From: Bacteroidota bacterium
Lineage (GTDB): Bacteria > Bacteroidota > Bacteroidia > Chitinophagales > Chitinophagaceae
Direction: 5' to 3'
DNA length: 33,466 nt
Assembly (NCBI GenBank): GCA_013286835.1
Contig: JABDEZ010000020.1
Location: forward strand, 1 to 33,466
The notes below the pieces were generated by a model that did not search any database, was not told the origin of the DNA, and saw nothing but the letters and a program-made list of their open reading frames with translations. A program made the position numbers and the translations under genes. Position 1 is the stretch's first letter. Every line of letters starts with the position of its first letter. Positions 11,488-21,264 of this stretch are shown piece after piece.

Positions 11488-12735
11488 ATGCTGTCCACCG
11501 CCAAGTCTTTGCCTGTTTCCAAACGCAGTGCAGTATCAAGAGTACTCACAGATCTTACATTCTGGGTTTTCTTTGCCATTGTAGCAGGGATATTAGTAGG
11601 GTATTACTATCCTGCTACCGGAGTTCAAACTGAGTTTATTGCAAAGGATTTTGTCAATATCATTAAACTATTTATTGCTCCCATTATTTTCCTTACCATA
11701 GTACTGGGTATAGCTGGAATGGGAGACCTGAAGAAGGTAGGGCGCATTGGGGTAAAATCGCTGGTGTATTTTGAGGTTGTAACCACTTTTGCATTGGTAA
11801 TAGGGGTTACCATAGCCTACTTGTTAAAGCCCGGGGCTATAGATAAAACTGGCTTACAGGTGCAGGATGCAGCCAAATATACCAACCATGCAAGTGAGCA
11901 TTTTAGTTGGATGAAGTTTTTTATGGATAATCTTACACTGCAGGTATTGTTGCTTGCCATCACGGTAGGTATCATTGTTAATTATATGCGCCGGCGTCAG
12001 CAGGTCATCAGCATATTGCAAAAAGCGTCTAAGATCGTTTTTACTTGTTTAAAGTATGTTATGTATCTCGCACCAATTGGTGCATTTGCAGGCATCGCAT
12101 TTACAGTTGGCAAATTCGGGTTGCATACGCTTATTCCTTTGGCAAAGTTGGTTGGTGCAGTCTATCTAACCATGGTCATTTTTGTACTTGGCATTTTGGG
12201 GCTCATTATGCGTGCAAACAAAATGCGTATCCTGCATTTTCTTAACTATATTAAAGAAGAGTTGCTGGTGGTACTTGGTACATCTTCTTCAGAGGCTGCC
12301 CTCCCTTCCATAATGCAGAAGCTTGAAGAGATGGGATGTAGTAAACCTGTTGTAGGTCTTGTTGTGCCTACTGGTTATTCTTTCAACCTGGATGGAACAT
12401 CTATATATCTTTCCATGTCGGTAATTTTTCTGGCGCAGCTATATGGAGTGCAATTAAGCCTGGGCGAAATATTAAGCATCATTGGCTTGCTCATGCTTAC
12501 ATCAAAAGGTGCCGCAGGTGTTACTGGCAGTGGCTTTATTGTACTCGCATCCACGCTTACTACCATACACAAGATCCCGGTCGAAGGTTTAGCTTTCTTG
12601 TTGGGTGTAGATAAATTCATGAGCGTTGCCAGGGCCATTACTAATCTTATAGGTAATGGTGTAGCCACTATAGTTATAGCTAAAAGTGAAAAGGAATTTA
12701 TAGTTCCTGAAATAGTTACTGCTTCATCGGCGTGA
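11488..12735 (+). CDS. Dicarboxylate/amino acid:cation symporter (DAACS / SDF family)
   Basis: Multi-TM protein with 'NIIKLFIAPIIFLTIVLGI', 'LGTSSSEAALPSIMQKLEEMG', 'PTGYSFNLDGTSIYLSM' and 'AGVTGSGFIVLASTL'. Confidence 0.93.
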   Translation: MLSTAKSLPVSKRSAVSRVLTDLTFWVFFAIVAGILVGYYYPATGVQTEFIAKDFVNIIKLFIAPIIFLTIVLGIAGMGDLKKVGRIGVKSLVYFEVVTTFALVIGVTIAYLLKPGAIDKTGLQVQDAAKYTNHASEHFSWMKFFMDNLTLQVLLLAITVGIIVNYMRRRQQVISILQKASKIVFTCLKYVMYLAPIGAFAGIAFTVGKFGLHTLIPLAKLVGAVYLTMVIFVLGILGLIMRANKMRILHFLNYIKEELLVVLGTSSSEAALPSIMQKLEEMGCSKPVVGLVVPTGYSFNLDGTSIYLSMSVIFLAQLYGVQLSLGEILSIIGLLMLTSKGAAGVTGSGFIVLASTLTTIHKIPVEGLAFLLGVDKFMSVARAITNLIGNGVATIVIAKSEKEFIVPEIVTASSA

Positions 12736-12795
12736 TTTATTGTAATTAGGTGATGACCGTTTTATTAAGTTTGTTGAGCTCAAAATTAAATATCA

Positions 12796-13230
12796 ATGCT
12801 GAGGAAGATAACACTGCTGGTTACTGTACTTGTTATAACAACAATGGTCACATTTGCCCAAACGGCAGATGAAAGATCTTTAGTAAAAACGTTGGAATCC
12901 TTTCGTAAAGTTTTGATAGACCCAGACTCCACGGTTTTAAAACAATTGGTGTCAGATAAAGTAAGCTATGGTCATTCAAGTGGAGTAGTACAAAACCGGG
13001 CAGCTTTTATAGAAGCGTTGCTCAATGGTAAGTCCGATTTTGTTACCATTGATATAAGTGGTCAGACCATAGAGATATTTGATGATGTGGCAATTGTTAG
13101 GCATACCCTGTCTGCTATTACTAATGACAACGGAAAGCCACGCACAGTAAAACTAGGGGTAATGTTAGTTTGGAAGAAAAGCCATAACAAATGGATCTTA
13201 ATAGCCAGGCAAGCGGTGCACACAACCTGA
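12796..13230 (+). CDS. Secreted NTF2-like / DUF4440 family protein
   Basis: Signal peptide, then 'LVKTLESFRKVLIDPDSTVLKQLVSDKVSYGHSSGVVQNRAAFIEALLNGKSDF...WILIARQAVHT'. Confidence 0.75.
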   Translation: MLRKITLLVTVLVITTMVTFAQTADERSLVKTLESFRKVLIDPDSTVLKQLVSDKVSYGHSSGVVQNRAAFIEALLNGKSDFVTIDISGQTIEIFDDVAIVRHTLSAITNDNGKPRTVKLGVMLVWKKSHNKWILIARQAVHTT

Positions 13231-13347
13231 TAGCTTCCGGTTATTGGTATTGTAAGGGACGGTATTACGAGCTATGTTAATTCCCCTTTATCATAATTAA
13301 CGATCCCTTCTTAAAATTATCCAATGCTATGCCCGGTATTATCAGCA

Positions 13348-13355
13348 TAACTTTG
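13348..13355 (+). promoter_or_regulatory. Bacteroidota -7 promoter element (TAACTTTG) for the rhomboid gene
   Basis: Exact TAnnTTTG, 17 bp before the ATG. Confidence 0.45.
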
Positions 13356-13372
13356 CTGCACCAATATAGTTT

Positions 13373-14419
13373 ATGAACGTTGTAAACCAGCCGGGATTGA
13401 TAGACGAGGTGCCAATGCATCATCTTGAACCTGTGCAGTTTTTAGCAGCTGCTCAAACTGCTGGTGCTCAGCTCCGTTGGTTCCTGCTTGGTTTAAACAG
13501 CAATGTTATTGTTTTTCAAACTCCTGATAGTTACACTTCCCAAGGCGATATGCTTACTATTACTCTAAGTGGAGATAAAGCTGTTTTGCAGAGTGTCCCG
13601 GTTAATGAATATTATTGGGATGAGGAACAGAGTAGGAGAAACATAGCTGCATTTAAGCAGGCAATGGCGGAAACTGCTGAAGCACAGCATAAAGCCAACC
13701 GTAGCCTGCATCCCATGCATCGCGAAAAATATGGCGCACTCATACCTTCAAAGAGTTATCTCATTACACCCATTATAGTTTACTGCAATGCCCTGGTATT
13801 TGTTGTAATGTTGCTTGCTGGTGTCTCTTTATTAGAACCTACAGCAAAAAGTCTTTTTCAATGGGGTGGTAACCTTAGGCCTGCGGTACTACATGGCGAT
13901 TGGTGGCGGCTGCTTACCTATATGTTCTTACATAGCGGTGCCATGCACCTGCTTATGAATACTATTGCATTGCTTTACATTGGCATGTTCCTGGAGCCAC
14001 TTTTAGGTAAGTTTCGTTTTGCTGCAGCTTACCTGCTTACTGGTGTTTGTGCAGGTCTTTTAAGTATTGTTATGCATCCTTTCAGCGTAGGTGTGGGGGC
14101 TTCTGGGGCTATATTTGGTTTGTACGGCGTGTTTCTTTCTATGCTCACTACCCGCCATATACAGAAGACCATGAAAAAAACAATGCTGCGCAGCATCTTG
14201 TTCTTTATCGTCTTCAACCTGTTTGCTGGCATCCAGGGTAATATTGACAATGCTGCACACATTGGCGGATTGGTCAGCGGTATTGTTATTGGGTATGTTT
14301 ATTACCCGGGTATAGCGGCGCATGACTCACTTAAAAAACAAATGTTGGTAACGGCCTTAATTATAGCAAGTGTTATTGCTACCTCTATCATCGCGCTAGG
14401 GTATCTAAAAGCTGTATAA
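13373..14419 (+). CDS. Rhomboid family intramembrane serine protease with N-terminal cytosolic extension
   Basis: 'WWRLLTYMFLHSGAMHLLMNTIALLYIG', catalytic 'GVGASGAIFGLYG', 'DNAAHIGGLVSGIVIGY'. Confidence 0.93.
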   Translation: MNVVNQPGLIDEVPMHHLEPVQFLAAAQTAGAQLRWFLLGLNSNVIVFQTPDSYTSQGDMLTITLSGDKAVLQSVPVNEYYWDEEQSRRNIAAFKQAMAETAEAQHKANRSLHPMHREKYGALIPSKSYLITPIIVYCNALVFVVMLLAGVSLLEPTAKSLFQWGGNLRPAVLHGDWWRLLTYMFLHSGAMHLLMNTIALLYIGMFLEPLLGKFRFAAAYLLTGVCAGLLSIVMHPFSVGVGASGAIFGLYGVFLSMLTTRHIQKTMKKTMLRSILFFIVFNLFAGIQGNIDNAAHIGGLVSGIVIGYVYYPGIAAHDSLKKQMLVTALIIASVIATSIIALGYLKAV

Positions 14420-14420
14420 T

Positions 14421-15155
14421 TTATCCCTCTCCGAAAAATTTTATTGGGGTATGTTTCTTTAGCCCAAAAGGTGCAATTGCATGTTTTTTGATGTGCGCAA
14501 TTCCTTCGGTAACAGAGTCTGTAAACAAGAAAAGTTCAATGTCTTTGGCGCTAATGGTCTTTTCCACCACCAGTCGTTGTATGTGTTGGTATAGTGCGGT
14601 ATGATAATCCTTACCCATCAATACAATAGGGAACTTTTGAAATTTTCCCGTCTCTATCATCGTTATGGCTTCAAAGAATTCATCAAGGGTGCCGTATCCA
14701 CCTGGCATTACCACAAAGGCGTAAGAGTATTTGCTTAGCAATGTCTTGCGCACAAAGAAATAATCAAAATCCACCCACTTGTCCAGGTATTTATTGGGCT
14801 GTTGTTCTTTGGGCAAAATAATATTGCACCCTACAGATCTGCCACCTACATCCTTGGCGCCACGGTTTGCAGCCTCCATTATGCCAGGCCCTCCTCCTGT
14901 CATCACAGTAAAGCCCAGCTTCGATATTTCCTGTCCCATTTCCCGGGCTAACTCATAATATGGCGACGACTCATCAAACCTGGCTGAGCCAAATACGGTA
15001 ACGCAAGGGCCAATAAAATGTAGTTTTCGCAGGCCGTAAAAAAATTCGCCAAATACCTGCATGAGAAATGTAAACTCTTTCCATCGCGAATGTGGCCCCT
15101 CCAGAAATTCGTTTTCTTTTCTTGAACCTATTGGGGTAAATGACTTATCGATCAT
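14421..15155 (-). CDS. LOG family / TIGR00730-type Rossmann-fold protein
   Basis: 'VTVFGSARF', 'VMTGGGPGIMEAANRGAKD', 'VMPGGYGTLDEFFEAITMIETGK'. Confidence 0.9.
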   Translation of the reverse strand: MIDKSFTPIGSRKENEFLEGPHSRWKEFTFLMQVFGEFFYGLRKLHFIGPCVTVFGSARFDESSPYYELAREMGQEISKLGFTVMTGGGPGIMEAANRGAKDVGGRSVGCNIILPKEQQPNKYLDKWVDFDYFFVRKTLLSKYSYAFVVMPGGYGTLDEFFEAITMIETGKFQKFPIVLMGKDYHTALYQHIQRLVVEKTISAKDIELFLFTDSVTEGIAHIKKHAIAPFGLKKHTPIKFFGEG

Positions 15156-15296
15156 ATGCTGAAATGTCTTTGAGAAAACAATGGTCCCGTTTTCATGACG
15201 CTGTTTACTGCTGCAAATATAGTAAGGTAAATACTATGCCTATTGCATAACTCATTGCTACAAGAACTTTCATCAACTGCCTTCAGCTTTTCAAAA

Positions 15297-15308
15297 TGAT
15301 CAGGATCA
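15297..15308. promoter_or_regulatory. CRP/FNR-type dyad TGATCAGGATCA (inside AAAATGATC-AG-GATCATTTT)
   Basis: TGA-N6-TCA in a 20-bp palindromic region (15293-15312) upstream of paralog 1. Confidence 0.55.
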
Positions 15309-15318
15309 TTTTAATTAC

Positions 15319-15330
15319 TGACCATGGTCA
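15319..15330. promoter_or_regulatory. CRP/FNR-type dyad TGACCATGGTCA
   Basis: Perfect 12-bp palindrome. A TATTTTTG -7-like element lies at 15354-15361. Confidence 0.6.
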
Positions 15331-15353
15331 TATTACATGGTTGTTAGTGCACC

Positions 15354-15361
15354 TATTTTTG
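15354..15361 (+). promoter_or_regulatory. Bacteroidota -7 element TATTTTTG for paralog 1
   Basis: Exact TAnnTTTG, 17 bp before the ATG at 15379. Confidence 0.5.
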
Positions 15362-15378
15362 AACGATAAACAAAATCT

Positions 15379-15792
15379 ATGGAAAAGGTAAGTATAGCAC
15401 ACTACAACAGCGTTAATAATGTATGGCTGCAAATGCTAGGTTTTTACAAGCTGGAAATGAGGGCACTTAAAAATAAACTTACAGATATTGTACGCAAAAA
15501 TACCAACATCGACGTTGTAGGTCAGGCACGACAATATGAAAAAGTGTTCGAAGTACAGCTGGGCAGTATAGATGAACTCTGCAAAGATATCTGCGCTATA
15601 ACAACAGAACAGGCTGTCCATACCAAAGAAGGGTATATTGATATCAATCTATGGTCTGCATATAGTCAGTTAAAAGAGCGGTTTATAACTGAAGAAAGGG
15701 AACTCAACAATGTAAAAAAGAGTTTTAAACAATTTGCTTCGGCTATGGATGCGAACAGTAACAATGTTTTTCAGTCATATTTATCCAATTGA
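15379..15792 (+). CDS. Small coiled-coil protein, paralog 1 of 3
   Basis: Shares 'W L x x L G F Y', 'EGYID..L', 'RFITEE' and a C-terminal 'F.QFA' with the ORF at 15890. Confidence 0.7.
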   Translation: MEKVSIAHYNSVNNVWLQMLGFYKLEMRALKNKLTDIVRKNTNIDVVGQARQYEKVFEVQLGSIDELCKDICAITTEQAVHTKEGYIDINLWSAYSQLKERFITEERELNNVKKSFKQFASAMDANSNNVFQSYLSN

Positions 15793-15827
15793 TTGGCAAT
15801 AGCCGTAATACAGATTACAATTACCGA

Positions 15828-15839
15828 TGACGCACGTCA
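15828..15839. promoter_or_regulatory. CRP/FNR-type dyad TGACGCACGTCA upstream of paralog 2
   Basis: TGA-N6-TCA, centre about 56 bp before the ATG at 15890. The equivalent paralog 1 site is about 54 bp before its ATG. Confidence 0.55.
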
Positions 15840-15889
15840 TATTTTTACTGAAGCAGGAAAAATAGTTATTGTATAATAAAAATAATTTT

Positions 15890-16273
15890 ATGGAAAAAAT
15901 AAGTGTAACACATTTTGACAATGAGCATGGTGAATGGTTGTCATCTTTGGGGTTTTATAGCGAGGAAATTGATTTATTAAGGAAAAGGCTCACAGAAATT
16001 GCCGGCAAAAACTCGGCTCAGGATGTTTTAAAAGAAGTAGAGCATTATGAAAATCAATTAACAGTGCAATCAGATAACATTCAAGCCTTGCGCCACGATA
16101 TTCATGCGAATGATGTAGCGATAAGAAGTCAGTTGGAAAATTCAAAAGAAGGATATGTGGATAACCGGTTGTATACAACACACAAAGAACTGATCGATCG
16201 TTTTATTACTGAAGAGAAAGTATTCAAAGAAGTTAGGGCAGATTTTATGCAGTTTGCCGCTACCTGGATGTAG
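15890..16273 (+). CDS. Small coiled-coil protein, paralog 2 of 3
   Basis: ATG at 15890 (MEKISVTHFDNEHGEWLSSLGFYSEE...) aligns with the start of paralog 1. The ORF track start at 15869 is an upstream in-frame extension. Confidence 0.72.
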   Translation: MEKISVTHFDNEHGEWLSSLGFYSEEIDLLRKRLTEIAGKNSAQDVLKEVEHYENQLTVQSDNIQALRHDIHANDVAIRSQLENSKEGYVDNRLYTTHKELIDRFITEEKVFKEVRADFMQFAATWM

Positions 16274-16306
16274 CATTTTTATAGGTTGAATTAGAAATAA
16301 GACGAA

Positions 16307-16343
16307 CACAGGGGCAAATGGAATTATTCCGTTTGCCCCTGTG
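16307..16343. terminator. Bidirectional intrinsic terminator between convergent paralog 2 and USP genes
   Basis: CACAGGGGCAAAtGGAA-TTA-TTCCgTTTGCCCCTGTG: 17-bp stem with one T/G pair, then GGAATTTT. Confidence 0.85.
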
Positions 16344-16374
16344 GAATTTTATCTATTCCTGTTCTGCTAAAGCT

Positions 16375-17187
16375 CTAGTGATGTGCAATGAAAAGAGGTA
16401 GCTTATGGTCCTTTACTATATTCCTGATAAAGCTGGTTTTAAAAAGTTCTGAGATAAAAGATCTGCCATGAGAACCTGTTACCAATAAGGCCCCTCCTTT
16501 TTCTGATAACCACGAATTGAAATACTTCTGCGGATTGGTTTCTAGTTTGAAAAAGGTAAGATGCTTAAAATGCCTTGCTGCAAGTTCTTCTATATAGGGC
16601 AGATCGGGCAAGTCATCATTTTTCTCAGATGCATAAACGATCAGCGTAGGCAATTCAGAAAGCTCTGGAAAGAGATATGCAAACTGTTTTAGTGCAAATA
16701 CAGAGGATGCACTGCCATCATAGGCAATAATAATGCTTTGTGGAAACTCAAAATCTTCAGGAACAAGCAGCGTTGCACATTCAGATCTGTGTATAGTATC
16801 CTCCAGGTAATCTTCACTGTCTTCGCCCAGGTTTTCAAAAAGTAACTGACTGTTAAGTACCAGCAGATCAGCATACCGGGTTTCCTTATTCAAGTCGTCT
16901 AATATAAAATCGTCCCTATGTACCCGGTATTCAATATGGTGCGCTTGGCACCTCGCTTCAAATTTTTCAATATTAACCTCAATCAGGTCTGGGTTGTCGT
17001 TCACATAGGGAATGTATATAGGCCCGGCCATACCACCTAAAAAGTACGTCATAGCATCAGAGTAGCTTACCGCAGGCAGAAAAACACCAGTAAGCAATAT
17101 AGGCTCCAACTCATTCAGGTCATTTGCAAATTGTATGATCCCTTCCGAAAATTGGTTGCCGTCAAAAACTGCAAGTAATTTTTTCAT
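16375..17187 (-). CDS. Universal stress protein family (two UspA-like halves)
   Basis: 'MKKLLAVFDGNQFSEGIIQFA' N-terminus, second half 'SIIIAYDGSASSVFALKQFAYLFP', C-terminal 'GALLVTGSHGRSFISELFKTSFI'. Confidence 0.85.
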   Translation of the reverse strand: MKKLLAVFDGNQFSEGIIQFANDLNELEPILLTGVFLPAVSYSDAMTYFLGGMAGPIYIPYVNDNPDLIEVNIEKFEARCQAHHIEYRVHRDDFILDDLNKETRYADLLVLNSQLLFENLGEDSEDYLEDTIHRSECATLLVPEDFEFPQSIIIAYDGSASSVFALKQFAYLFPELSELPTLIVYASEKNDDLPDLPYIEELAARHFKHLTFFKLETNPQKYFNSWLSEKGGALLVTGSHGRSFISELFKTSFIRNIVKDHKLPLFIAHH

Positions 17188-17460
17188 GATAATTTTTATT
17201 TAACGGATGTAAGTTGACTGTTGGGTAATAAAAAATAGCTGCAGTTATCATGCATTAATATCGTACCAATAGAATTTGCCTTATATCGCTCTGCTAAATG
17301 CGATGATTTTTTACTGCCGGCTGCATACCAACCCAAAATGTCGGTTTCCCAGTCGTTTTTGCAACAAACATTTCCCAAGTTCCCATCCTTTTTTTCAAGG
17401 AGGGGTGGCCGCAGGCCGGGTGGTTACACTCGCAACCGGACAGAACACTCCCCCCTCTCG

Positions 17461-17505
17461 TACTCGTTTATAACGAGTATGCCCCGGTTTGGCGTTTGCA
17501 ACGCC
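17461..17505. repeat. Pair of short perfect hairpins: TACTCGTT-TAT-AACGAGTA and GGCGTT-TGC-AACGCC
   Basis: Arms of 8 bp (17461-17479) and 6 bp (17491-17505), next to 'AAGGAGGGGTGGCCGCAGGCCGGGTGG' (about 17397-17423). Confidence 0.5.
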
Positions 17506-17708
17506 CGTGAAACATTACAACCCGTGAAACGGTGCATATCTACTGTACTAAAATACCAATTACCCATGGAACCTCGCAGTGACACTATTAAAACAAAAAG
17601 ACCTGTCCGACACCGGACAAAACAGTGTAAATAAAATGCACATCAGGCTACCATAAAGCATTCCAGCCACAAGAATCAAGCAGCCTGTCCGGAGATATAT
17701 TCATTCGA

Positions 17709-17720
17709 TGATCTTAGTCA
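17709..17720. promoter_or_regulatory. CRP/FNR-type dyad TGATCTTAGTCA upstream of paralog 3
   Basis: CGATGA-TCTTAG-TCATCG. A TATTTTTA -7-like element at 17744-17751 has the same spacing as at paralog 1. Confidence 0.5.
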
Positions 17721-17757
17721 TCGTTTATTTTAAACCTTCTGGATATTTTTACCCTTA

Positions 17758-17769
17758 TGATCTTTATCA
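17758..17769. promoter_or_regulatory. Second CRP/FNR-type dyad TGATCTTTATCA upstream of paralog 3
   Basis: TGAT-CTTT-ATCA, 49 bp downstream of the first. Confidence 0.45.
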
Positions 17770-17926
17770 CCTTTTCTTATGATGACGGTTATTATTATTA
17801 GCAGCAGACTAAGATAATTTTACGTTATAGCAATCAACTGTCTGGTTATATGGGTTGCAGGTTTTCTGGTTCTCAGGCTCAGTCTTTAATTGCGGTAAGT
17901 AGGTATAGATGTAAATAGAAAATAAA

Positions 17927-18301
17927 ATGGTGATAAGTAAGATTAAGCATCTGAAGAATGAAAGAGAAACCTGGCTTAGAACTCTGGATTATATGCAGCA
18001 GGAGAATGTTTTCTTGAAGACTAGTCTGGGCGATAGCATACAAAATGACATCAATAATGAAGTCTTGGAAAGAGTTGAGTTTTTCCAAAATCAATTTGTC
18101 AACAAGGATGCTGTTATTGCATTACTCCGCTATGATATTGCGGAGCAAAATAGGTTATTGGAAAGCAGTGGGGATTTAAGTAATAACTACATGGCTATAG
18201 TAAAAAAACAAAATAGCTTACGTAAGGATATGGCGCGGATGGAAAAGGATTTTAATGAATTGAAATTTCAATTTAATACTTACCTGGCAGAGGTGCTATG
18301 A
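17927..18301 (+). CDS. Small coiled-coil protein, diverged paralog 3 of 3
   Basis: 'ETWLRTLDYMQQENVFLKTSL...RVEFFQNQFVNKDAVIALLRYDIAEQ' parallels 'GEWLSSLGFYSEEIDLLRKRL...EVEHYENQLTVQSDNIQALRHDIHAN' of paralog 2. Confidence 0.65.
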   Translation: MVISKIKHLKNERETWLRTLDYMQQENVFLKTSLGDSIQNDINNEVLERVEFFQNQFVNKDAVIALLRYDIAEQNRLLESSGDLSNNYMAIVKKQNSLRKDMARMEKDFNELKFQFNTYLAEVL

Positions 18302-18302
18302 T

Positions 18303-19358
18303 TTAATTGAACATATTTTGTAGCTTCTTTACATCTAGTATTACTATTTCTCCCTGGCGTATATCTATAAGTTTTTCTTCTTTAAAATCACTTAGGGTTC
18401 GTATCGCAGATTCCTTAGCTGTTCCAGCTACATTGGCCAGGTTTTCGCGGCTTATATCTATTACAAACTCAGCTTTACCACCGCTGTACTTGCTATGGAT
18501 AGCCAATAGTGCATCGGCTACTTTTTTCCTTAATGAGTTATAGGCAAGGTTAAGAAGTTGCTGTTCGCGTTCTGAAACATTATTAGCCAGTAGCTGAATA
18601 AATTTCTTCATCACCTCACGGTTGTTATTGATCAGGTATTCAAAGTCGTCCTTGGGTATTAATGCTACTGTGGTTTCTTCAAGTGCTTCTGTTGTTTCTT
18701 TATAGGTGCCCCCTTCCAGCAGTGCTACATAGCCCAAAAAATCACCTGCACTGTATAGCCCTGTTACCAGTTCCTTACCATCATCATTGGTTTTGTACGC
18801 CTTTACTTTTCCCTGTGTTATATAGTAAAGCCGGTGTGGATGGCTCTCCTCGGCATATATCACCTGTTTTTTCCTGAAATTGCTAATGCTCCGGTCATTG
18901 GCAAAGATTCTTAAAGCATCCTTACCACCTGCTGTTTCCACAAGTTCATTTATGCCTTCAAGTCCTGCTGCCAGGTCTTTTTTTATAAGCTCTGTTTTAC
19001 GCAGTCTGCTTTCTACAGCATTCAGTAATTCTGTGCCATTAAAGGGTTTGGTAATGTAATCATCGGCGCCAAGCTCCATACCTTTTCTTATCTCAGCCCG
19101 TTCCGCTTTAGCGGTAATAAATATGAAGGGTATATTTCTTGTTTCTATATTCTTCTGCAGCATGTGTATTACGCCATAGCCATCCAGTACAGGCATCATT
19201 ATGTCACATACAATCAGGTCAGGTTTATGTTGTATGGCTAGTGCCACTCCTTTTTTCCCATCTTCAGCTATTATTGTTTTATAGCCAGATAACTCCAGTA
19301 TTTCAGACATGTTTTCACATATCTCCATGTTGTCTTCAATGAGCAATATTACTTTCAT
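18303..19358 (-). CDS. Response regulator fused to a CRP/FNR-type cNMP-binding domain and HTH
   Basis: REC domain 'ILLIEDNMEICENMSEILELSGY...DLIVCDIMMPVLDGYGV..FITAKA...GADDYITKPF', cNMP-binding barrel 'KQVIYAEESHPHRLYYITQGKVKAYKTNDDGKELVTGLYSAGDFLGYVALLEGG', HTH 'ISRENLANVAGTAKESAIRTLSDFKEEKLI'. Confidence 0.93.
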   Translation of the reverse strand: MKVILLIEDNMEICENMSEILELSGYKTIIAEDGKKGVALAIQHKPDLIVCDIMMPVLDGYGVIHMLQKNIETRNIPFIFITAKAERAEIRKGMELGADDYITKPFNGTELLNAVESRLRKTELIKKDLAAGLEGINELVETAGGKDALRIFANDRSISNFRKKQVIYAEESHPHRLYYITQGKVKAYKTNDDGKELVTGLYSAGDFLGYVALLEGGTYKETTEALEETTVALIPKDDFEYLINNNREVMKKFIQLLANNVSEREQQLLNLAYNSLRKKVADALLAIHSKYSGGKAEFVIDISRENLANVAGTAKESAIRTLSDFKEEKLIDIRQGEIVILDVKKLQNMFN

Positions 19359-20545
19359 AATTCTTCTTTATTCAATGGCTTGAAATTGATAATGAATTCT
19401 GTTCCTTTACACTCTTCACTTACACATGCAATATTACCATTCATCAGTTCTGTGTATTTCGATACAATGTGTAACCCCAGTCCTGTACCCTGTATAGTAG
19501 TTACCGATTCACTTCTGAAGAAACGCTCAAACAAATGCTCTTGGTCGGCTTTAGACATGCCTAAACCATGATCTTTTACAGAAAGGTAAATGCCTTCTGG
19601 TCCGCTTTCTGTTCTAATATCAATGCTGGAGGCTTCTGGAGAAAACTTAATAGCATTAGATATGAGGTTCATCAGGATGTGACTTAATAGAGAGGGGTCA
19701 AGATATACTATACTGTTTCCGGCATGAATGTACTTCAGTTCTTGTCCCGTTTTTAGTAAAGTCTGTAGTTCTGTGAGTAGTGCATTAATATGCTGTTCAA
19801 TATCAAAATCAATAAAGCGTACCTGTATTTTTCCTTCCTCAATTCTCCCAACAGAGAGAAAATCATTCAGTATATCAGTAAGCATGTGTACCGATGATAC
19901 AATGCGTTGTATATGTTTATCGCGTTTAGGTTGGTCTTCAGTTGTAATGTATTTGTTTACCAGGTATGCCGACGAAAGTATTGTGCTGAGTGGTGTTCTG
20001 AACTCGTGCGAAGCCATAGATACAAAACGCGATTTGAGCTCATTCAGTTCTTTCTCTTTCTCCAGTGCTACAGATAGCGAATGGGTGCGCTCCTCTACTT
20101 TTTGTTCCAGTTCCGCATTCAACTGCAGCAATGCTTGTTCTGATTGTTTTCTTATGGATATGTCGCTTATAAATGCAATAGAGAATTGTCCCGTGTCCGA
20201 TTTGTGGGGGCTTAGGCTCACCTCTACGGGAAATTCGGTGCCATCCTTTTTTATTGCAAATAGATCCATACCTACTCCCATAGGTCTGCTATGTGTTTTG
20301 CGGCTATGGTAATGGTCGCGGTGTTTTATATGTTTATCCTTGTAACGGCCGGGAATAAGTAATTCTATTTTTTTGCCAATAAGCTCCTGTTCCTGGTAGC
20401 CAAATTGCTTTAGCGCAAACCCGTTAACTAGTACTATACTGCCTTCGGCATCAATAATAATGATACCTATAGCCGCATTGTTGAAAAGGGCCTGGAACTC
20501 CTTGTTTGCAGATTGAGTATTCACTTTGGGAGTAGCATTGAGCAT
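19355..20545 (-). CDS. PAS-domain sensor histidine kinase (no TM segment seen)
   Basis: PAS domain 'FQALFNNAAIGIIIIDAEGSIVLVNGFALKQFGYQEQELIGK', H-box 'MASHEFRTPLSTILSSAYLV', N-box 'HILMNLISNAIKFS', G-box 'DHGLGMS' and 'GTGLGLHIV'. ATGA stop/start overlap with the downstream response regulator. Confidence 0.94.
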   Translation of the reverse strand: MLNATPKVNTQSANKEFQALFNNAAIGIIIIDAEGSIVLVNGFALKQFGYQEQELIGKKIELLIPGRYKDKHIKHRDHYHSRKTHSRPMGVGMDLFAIKKDGTEFPVEVSLSPHKSDTGQFSIAFISDISIRKQSEQALLQLNAELEQKVEERTHSLSVALEKEKELNELKSRFVSMASHEFRTPLSTILSSAYLVNKYITTEDQPKRDKHIQRIVSSVHMLTDILNDFLSVGRIEEGKIQVRFIDFDIEQHINALLTELQTLLKTGQELKYIHAGNSIVYLDPSLLSHILMNLISNAIKFSPEASSIDIRTESGPEGIYLSVKDHGLGMSKADQEHLFERFFRSESVTTIQGTGLGLHIVSKYTELMNGNIACVSEECKGTEFIINFKPLNKEEL

Positions 20546-20658
20546 GAAAGGTAGGGTAATTTCTTATGTATTATTATAAGGATTATTAACCTGACAGCTT
20601 TTTCTCTATGCCCTATTGACTTGGTGTGAATTTATATATATAGGTTTGATGATTGGGG

Positions 20659-21264
20659 TTATGCAGCTAGGGTTAGTCGCTGTAATATGGCCACCACGTA
20701 AGGTGTAAGTATTTTTACTTCATGGTGTTCATGCAATGGTATTTGCATAAAGTCTCCGGCAACCATCCTGAAAACTTTATCGCCTACCATACAGTCACAC
20801 TGGCCTTCCAGTATAATAAAGCTCTCCAATTCGTTAGTATGCACTTCATCTTCAATATCTGTTGCAGATACAATTAGCATTTGCAATACAGACGGCCTGC
20901 TTGTAAGTACTTTAGTATATCGCCCTTCCTTAAACGATGAGGGTATGCGGTCTTGTACAAAGTCTAGCCATCGGCGGTAATTCGTAAATTTATTGATCAG
21001 TGGCAGGTCTGCTAGCTGCATTTGTGCCTCTTTGCTCAGGTTGTCTAAAAGATTGCCAATGGCGTGTTCTAGATGTGCCGGGGGTGTTACAGCGTATTTC
21101 TGGGTATAGGTTTCCATGGCTGCCTGTATGCTGTCTATTTCATTCTTTACCTCAGTATGCATCGTCATCATATGTTGCACCTCCTCCATCTCCTGTGGCG
21201 ATAAAGCTCCCAGGCAGTAGAGTTCTAAAATACCGGTATCAATATATTCCCGTATGTTCATCAC
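20659..21264 (-). CDS. Cupin-domain protein with anti-sigma-like N-terminal region
   Basis: N-terminus 'YIDTGILELYCLGALSPQEMEEVQHMMTMHTEVKNEIDSIQAAMETY' resembles RskA/ChrR-like anti-sigma N-termini. C-terminal cupin 'VHTNELESFIILEGQCDCMVGDKVFRMVAGDFMQIPLHEHHEVKIL'. Confidence 0.7.
   Translation of the reverse strand: MMNIREYIDTGILELYCLGALSPQEMEEVQHMMTMHTEVKNEIDSIQAAMETYTQKYAVTPPAHLEHAIGNLLDNLSKEAQMQLADLPLINKFTNYRRWLDFVQDRIPSSFKEGRYTKVLTSRPSVLQMLIVSATDIEDEVHTNELESFIILEGQCDCMVGDKVFRMVAGDFMQIPLHEHHEVKILTPYVVAILQRLTLAA

Follow-up and report, generated by a model that had tools for sequence, protein, structure and literature searches.

A probable FixL/FixJ/FixK-like switch with a fused CRP/FNR output and tandem TGA-N6-TCA sites in Chitinophagaceae

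Known low-oxygen regulators and the locus compared with them

The anaerobox of the rhizobial FixL-FixJ-FixK system is TTGAT-N4-ATCAA (PMC7888657, PMC9104804), and in rhizobia it is read by both FixK and FnrN (PMC7888657). In Rhizobium leguminosarum, which combines hFixL-FxkR-FixK with FnrN, FxkR is a separate protein that acts on fixK via the K-box (PMC7888657). No description of the control of a high-affinity oxidase in Chitinophagaceae was found in the open-access literature searched, the coverage of which is incomplete, nor did the literature searched contain any account of a Bacteroidota REC-CRP fusion accompanied by cbb3 genes. Here we analyse a stretch of 33,466 nucleotides (the window), which is contig C20 of the draft Chitinophagaceae genome G000 (2.67 Mb, 69% complete). 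It encodes a PAS histidine kinase and a response regulator in which a receiver is fused to CRP/FNR domains (REC-CRP), next to three small paralogous genes preceded by TGA-N6-TCA dyads. We conclude, with a probability of roughly 0.7, that the pair is a FixL/FixJ/FixK-like system in which FixJ and FixK are fused, and that the dyads are its operators. The genes concerned are as follows.

15379-15792, plus strand: paralog 1, small helical protein of 137 residues
15890-16273, plus strand: paralog 2, 127 residues from the ATG at 15890, most likely its start
17927-18301, plus strand: paralog 3, 124 residues, convergent with the REC-CRP gene, in a slot that is conserved in relatives
18303-19358, minus strand: REC-CRP/FNR fusion response regulator (Pfam Response_reg, cNMP_binding, HTH_Crp_2)
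19355-20545, minus strand: soluble PAS histidine kinase, PAS-HisKA-HATPase (Pfam PAS, HisKA, HATPase_c), with a FixL-like PAS domain

The locus has in common with the rhizobial FixL-FixJ-FixK system a PAS kinase close to FixL, a CRP/FNR output and a site with a TGA-N6-TCA core, and in relatives also the targets, namely the cbb3 oxidase, its assembly genes such as CcoI/FixI, and hemN. It differs in that the receiver and the CRP/FNR domains form one protein, with neither a separate FixJ of LuxR-type output nor a separate FixK; because the separate FixJ step is absent, it is not a strict member of the FixLJ-FixK type. The promoters also differ, in having a Bacteroidota -7 box and tandem dyads 22 bp apart, and conservation does not extend to the outer T of the anaerobox (position -6.5 of the aligned sites is C in 46%). 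As in R. leguminosarum, two oxygen regulators, one two-component and one a cysteine-bearing FNR type, would read one class of site (PMC7888657), except that here the output protein of the two-component system is itself a CRP/FNR protein. The layout is that of class II and class I CRP/FNR promoters, with one dyad centred some 41 bp before the inferred start and a second near -63, except that the box used is the Bacteroidota TAnnTTTG.

Operators, promoters and their probable reader

We counted 448 dyads (64 half-sites with seven spacers) in the intergenic DNA of 80 loci around REC-CRP homologues, and TGA-N6-TCA came top, with 308 occurrences against 52 expected; the runners-up were mostly extended forms of the same dyad. 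Its density is 4.6 per kb of intergenic DNA up to 1 kb from REC-CRP and about 1.2 beyond 4 kb, against about 0.4 by chance. The distance from dyad to TAnnTTTG box in these loci is 23 nucleotides in 33 cases and 45 nucleotides in 53, with only 0-3 cases at other gaps, the longer gap applying where a second dyad stands 22 bp nearer the box. Tandem dyads at this 22-bp spacing were found 78 times. With the sites oriented to the downstream gene, the last base of the box is 36.5 bp from the dyad centre, which is the figure given in the earlier note on this DNA, and the class II-like distance proposed there is constant across relatives.

The sites and boxes of the window are listed here, together with their counterparts in the orthologous locus (L166) of a same-genus genome, G063, which is 98% complete.

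15297-15308: dyad TGATCAGGATCA, distal site of the paralog 1 tandem, at about -63; conserved as TGATTAGGATCA in L166
15319-15330: dyad TGACCATGGTCA, proximal site of paralog 1, at about -41, 22 bp from the distal site; conserved as TGACCATAGTCA in L166
15354-15361, plus strand: -7 box TATTTTTG of paralog 1, 23 nucleotides past the dyad at 15319
15806-15817: degenerate dyad TAATACAGATTA, which matches at 4 of 6 half-site positions and lies 22 bp before the dyad of paralog 2; it reads TAATACAGATCA in the same-genus genome
15828-15839: dyad TGACGCACGTCA, proximal site of paralog 2; conserved as TGACAATCGTCA in L166
15863-15871, plus strand: -7-like box TAGTTATTG of paralog 2, with one base more than the TAGTTTTG of the relative
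17709-17720: dyad TGATCTTAGTCA, which may serve paralog 3 via TATTTTTA
17744-17751, plus strand: box TATTTTTA, 23 nucleotides past the dyad at 17709
17758-17769: dyad TGATCTTTATCA, distal site of the paralog 3 tandem; identical in L166
17780-17791: dyad with one mismatch, TGATGACGGTTA, proximal site of paralog 3, 22 bp from 17758; TGATGAAGGTTA in L166
17815-17822, plus strand: -7 box TAATTTTA of paralog 3, 23 nucleotides past 17780-17791 and 45 past 17758-17769

All five exact dyads reported earlier (15297, 15319, 15828, 17709 and 17758) are located where they were claimed to be, and their claimed excess over chance is borne out. The whole window holds 17 copies of TGA-N6-TCA against 7.9 ± 2.6 in shuffled sequence (none of 100 shuffles reaches 17), and its 4,166 bases of intergenic DNA hold 6 against 1.4 expected (Poisson P = 0.003). 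Finding five in the 1,059 bases that precede the three paralogs would be rarer still, but this region was picked post hoc. The distances from dyad to box had also been given correctly, the gap from dyad end to box being 23 nucleotides at 15319, 15828 and 17709; the odd value of 37.5 given for paralog 2 arises because its box is one base longer, and the L166 counterpart of this dyad has its box, TAGTTTTG, 23 nucleotides downstream. The dyads are conserved in the orthologous locus, with every half-site base of the five exact dyads kept in G063 (30/30), against 23/30 for the N6 positions.

It is thus extremely improbable that a short palindrome has merely clustered here by chance. The motif has only six bases and the intergenic excess in the window is itself just 6 against 1.4, but the enrichment, spacing and conservation in relatives contradict such an origin.

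For paralog 3 the promoter proposed earlier, the dyad at 17709 with a box at 23 nucleotides, does exist, but the tandem at 17758 and 17780 with TAATTTTA fits better. This tandem, 22 bp apart, has the arrangement common among relatives. In G063, 45 nucleotides separate the counterpart of the dyad at 17709 from the TATTTTTG box belonging to the divergent ccoI operon. In the window, neither the gene of the USP family nor the kinase operon has a dyad in its immediate upstream DNA, even with one mismatch allowed. The possible control of this USP gene suggested in the earlier note therefore finds no site, though USP genes of relatives have them. At other loci, 29 kinase genes have an upstream site of their own.

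The composite element TGAY-N4-RTCA-N23-TAnnTTTG was searched for in 150 genomes of the family Chitinophagaceae, 110 with REC-CRP and 40 without, using the same pattern backward as control, and stands well above that control. Genomes with REC-CRP contain 515 elements (1.02 per Mb), some 22 times above the control, which is about 0.046 per Mb in both groups. A composite search at gaps of 26-30, in effect a negative control, gave 2 matches where its own control gave 3. Relaxing the box to TANNTTNR (gap 22-25) gave 14 matches in the genome of the window alone, not above the 26 of the control; the genome-wide signal therefore emerges only with the strict pattern or over several genomes. The genes downstream of other candidate sites in G000 (L012, L017, L023) formed no clear regulon.

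In most of the loci L180-L189 there is a CRP/FNR protein that stands alone, bears N-terminal cysteines and has almost the recognition helix of REC-CRP; the same site grammar lies nearby.

That such an FNR-type protein owns the dyads, with REC-CRP as a second or non-main reader, is unlikely, although several observations weigh on its side. The 40 genomes without REC-CRP still hold 55 composite elements (0.41 per Mb), which indicates a second reader; neighbourhoods of the stand-alone FNR type carry the same motif and 22-bp tandem (5.3-fold); and in a regression, in which phylogeny was not modelled, genomes with the FNR type hold more sites (t = 3.5), independently of REC-CRP. The recognition helices are also close (GTATESTIRLL in the FNR type, GTATESLIRTL in REC-CRP). 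Against this, the larger independent association belongs to REC-CRP (t = 5.6), and a gene of the FNR type was found neither in G000 nor in the 98%-complete G063, both of which yielded only the type represented by L002. L002, the other CRP/FNR protein of G000, is itself disfavoured as owner of the sites, having a different helix (GTTYETFFRML), and the dyad and box geometry was not found in the neighbourhoods of its type.

Since the FNR type shares the grammar, the site alone does not name the protein. The earlier assignment of REC-CRP as the regulator holds insofar as the dyad is associated with REC-CRP genes, and has to be qualified insofar as the FNR type uses the same grammar elsewhere. Taken together, dyad enrichment, fixed spacing and conservation largely support both the geometry and the regulator first put forward. 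As a reading of sequence, control of these promoters by the kinase/REC-CRP pair appears well supported by comparison and spacing.

The kinase, the fused regulator and the signal

The kinase, the REC-CRP protein with its helix GTAKESAIRTL and the three paralogs are all present as first described. The genes for REC-CRP and kinase overlap, stop on start, and in 63 of 79 loci the REC-CRP gene is immediately preceded by a histidine kinase gene. The Asp motif of the receiver is conserved. A cNMP-binding-like domain followed by a Crp-type helix-turn-helix places REC-CRP in the CRP/FNR superfamily, and its homologues conserve a recognition helix GT[AS]xE[ST]xIR, including the E and R. REC-CRP is carried by about three quarters of the Chitinophagaceae genomes sampled, and cultured relatives with the pair include Flavihumibacter and Dyadobacter. 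The closest named relative of the window is a Flavipsychrobacter metagenome-assembled genome, the REC-CRP of which (L029) is 95% identical. A second kinase/REC-CRP pair within one genome, 76% identical, was noted for a Flavipsychrobacter assembly (L030) and G063.

The best matches of the kinase PAS profile in the PDB are FixL (7.5e-19) and then DosP. H72 of the kinase aligns with the heme-ligand position of FixL, and is invariant in 26 homologues. A PAS domain nearest to FixL and DosP with an invariant His makes it likely that this domain binds heme. Weighing on the other side, the position of the distal Arg of FixL is not conserved among the homologues, and is Met in the window kinase. This variation is compatible with a different signal, such as redox state, nitric oxide or another PAS ligand, read by the same pair at the same sites; hemerythrin/ScdA and HemN, which are among the predicted targets, would also fit nitric oxide or redox stress. 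A signal other than oxygen via heme is possible but on the whole doubtful, given that the heme-ligand His is invariant, that the closest structures are FixL and DosP, and that cbb3 genes are the main neighbours, lying near REC-CRP in about 31-34 of the 79 loci.

The FixL/FixJ/FixK-like switch most likely turns on low-oxygen genes. As oxygen falls, the kinase, through its FixL-like and probably heme-bearing PAS domain, would phosphorylate the receiver. The phosphorylated REC-CRP dimer would bind TGAY-N4-RTCA via its CRP-type helix, as helix conservation and site association suggest, and would activate promoters having a TAnnTTTG -7 box 23 nucleotides past the proximal dyad. Counted from inferred start sites, this dyad would lie near -41 (class II), and a second usually 22 bp upstream near -63. 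The predicted targets in relatives would be the cbb3 oxidase, CcoI, HemN, USP, Hsp20, the ScdA-type hemerythrin and fermentation-type enzymes.

Predicted targets, the missing cbb3 block and the small helical proteins

In relatives, the genes found behind sites are those of respiration and heme (ccoNO, ccoI, ccoP, hemN-like), of stress and regulation (USP, Hsp20, ScdA-type hemerythrin, Rrf2, Nramp) and of several enzymes (PPDK, zinc alcohol dehydrogenase, thiolase, beta-CASP nuclease). In content this set is similar to the FixK and Anr regulons for low oxygen (PMC7888657, PMC9104804, PMC6588701). The regulon had been called self-contained, which is wrong because it appears to be genome-wide, with genes of low-oxygen respiration as its main targets in relatives.

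In the window these respiration genes are missing from the locus. A blastn comparison with G063 aligns window 12255-17285 with L166 1-5045, and window 17703-21050 with L166 16160-19501. The 11.1 kb between the aligned parts of L166 carries hemN-like, ccoG, ccoP, ccoNO and ccoI genes. Two further features of the window belong here.

16375-17187, minus strand: USP-family gene, 270 residues (Pfam Usp 2.5e-4, below cut-off)
17286-17702: scar of about 417 bp, partly dispersed-repeat DNA, where G063 has the 11.1-kb cbb3 block (blastn against L166)

The repeat in the scar has about 20 partial copies in the genome of the window, and the right breakpoint falls just before the dyad at 17709. A second assembly (L028) has the identical junction. 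In the more distant relatives L031 and L032, oxidase genes occupy the place of the scar, which makes loss the likelier direction. No CcoNO turned up in the rest of the draft genome of the window; with the draft 69% complete this is no proof of absence, though it counts against our reading. An open reading frame of 98 residues at 17338-17634 falls within the repeat DNA and was for that reason not taken to be a gene.

The remaining local targets in the window are predicted to be three small three-helix-bundle proteins. Identity to paralog 1 is 39% for paralog 2 and 20% for paralog 3, and no Pfam or NCBIfam family matches any of the three above its cut-off. Modelled from 19 sequences, paralog 2 is a confident three-helix bundle, with a predicted local distance difference test score of 92. 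Foldseek searches of the PDB with this fold returned nothing below E = 0.001, only generic helical bundles. The slot convergent to the REC-CRP gene is usually filled by a paralog homologue.

Two other families were noted. An unrelated family of 133 residues, noted at L044:11065-11466 and at 17 further loci, occupies the convergent REC-CRP slot in 16 loci and often has dyads before it. A family of 183-225 residues with the cysteine-rich motif HDCxNCxGxC (L029:11656-12255) is encoded before ccoI and has dyads upstream. Neither has a Pfam or NCBIfam match.

The fullest version of our proposal has, in our view, an even chance of being right. It is that a one-step form of FixLJ-FixK is widespread in Chitinophagaceae and occurs also in other Bacteroidota, in which a heme-PAS kinase directly phosphorylates a REC-CRP/FNR protein that reads tandem dyads 22 bp apart, operators it would have in common with an FNR-type protein; among the targets tied most closely to the locus would be undescribed small helical proteins, left behind after loss of the oxidase operon. 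The defined regulator, operator and promoter geometry make oxygen control in Chitinophagaceae directly testable. The window would be a natural case of a regulator without its former main operon that has retained other targets, and it points to undescribed small proteins linked to low-oxygen life.

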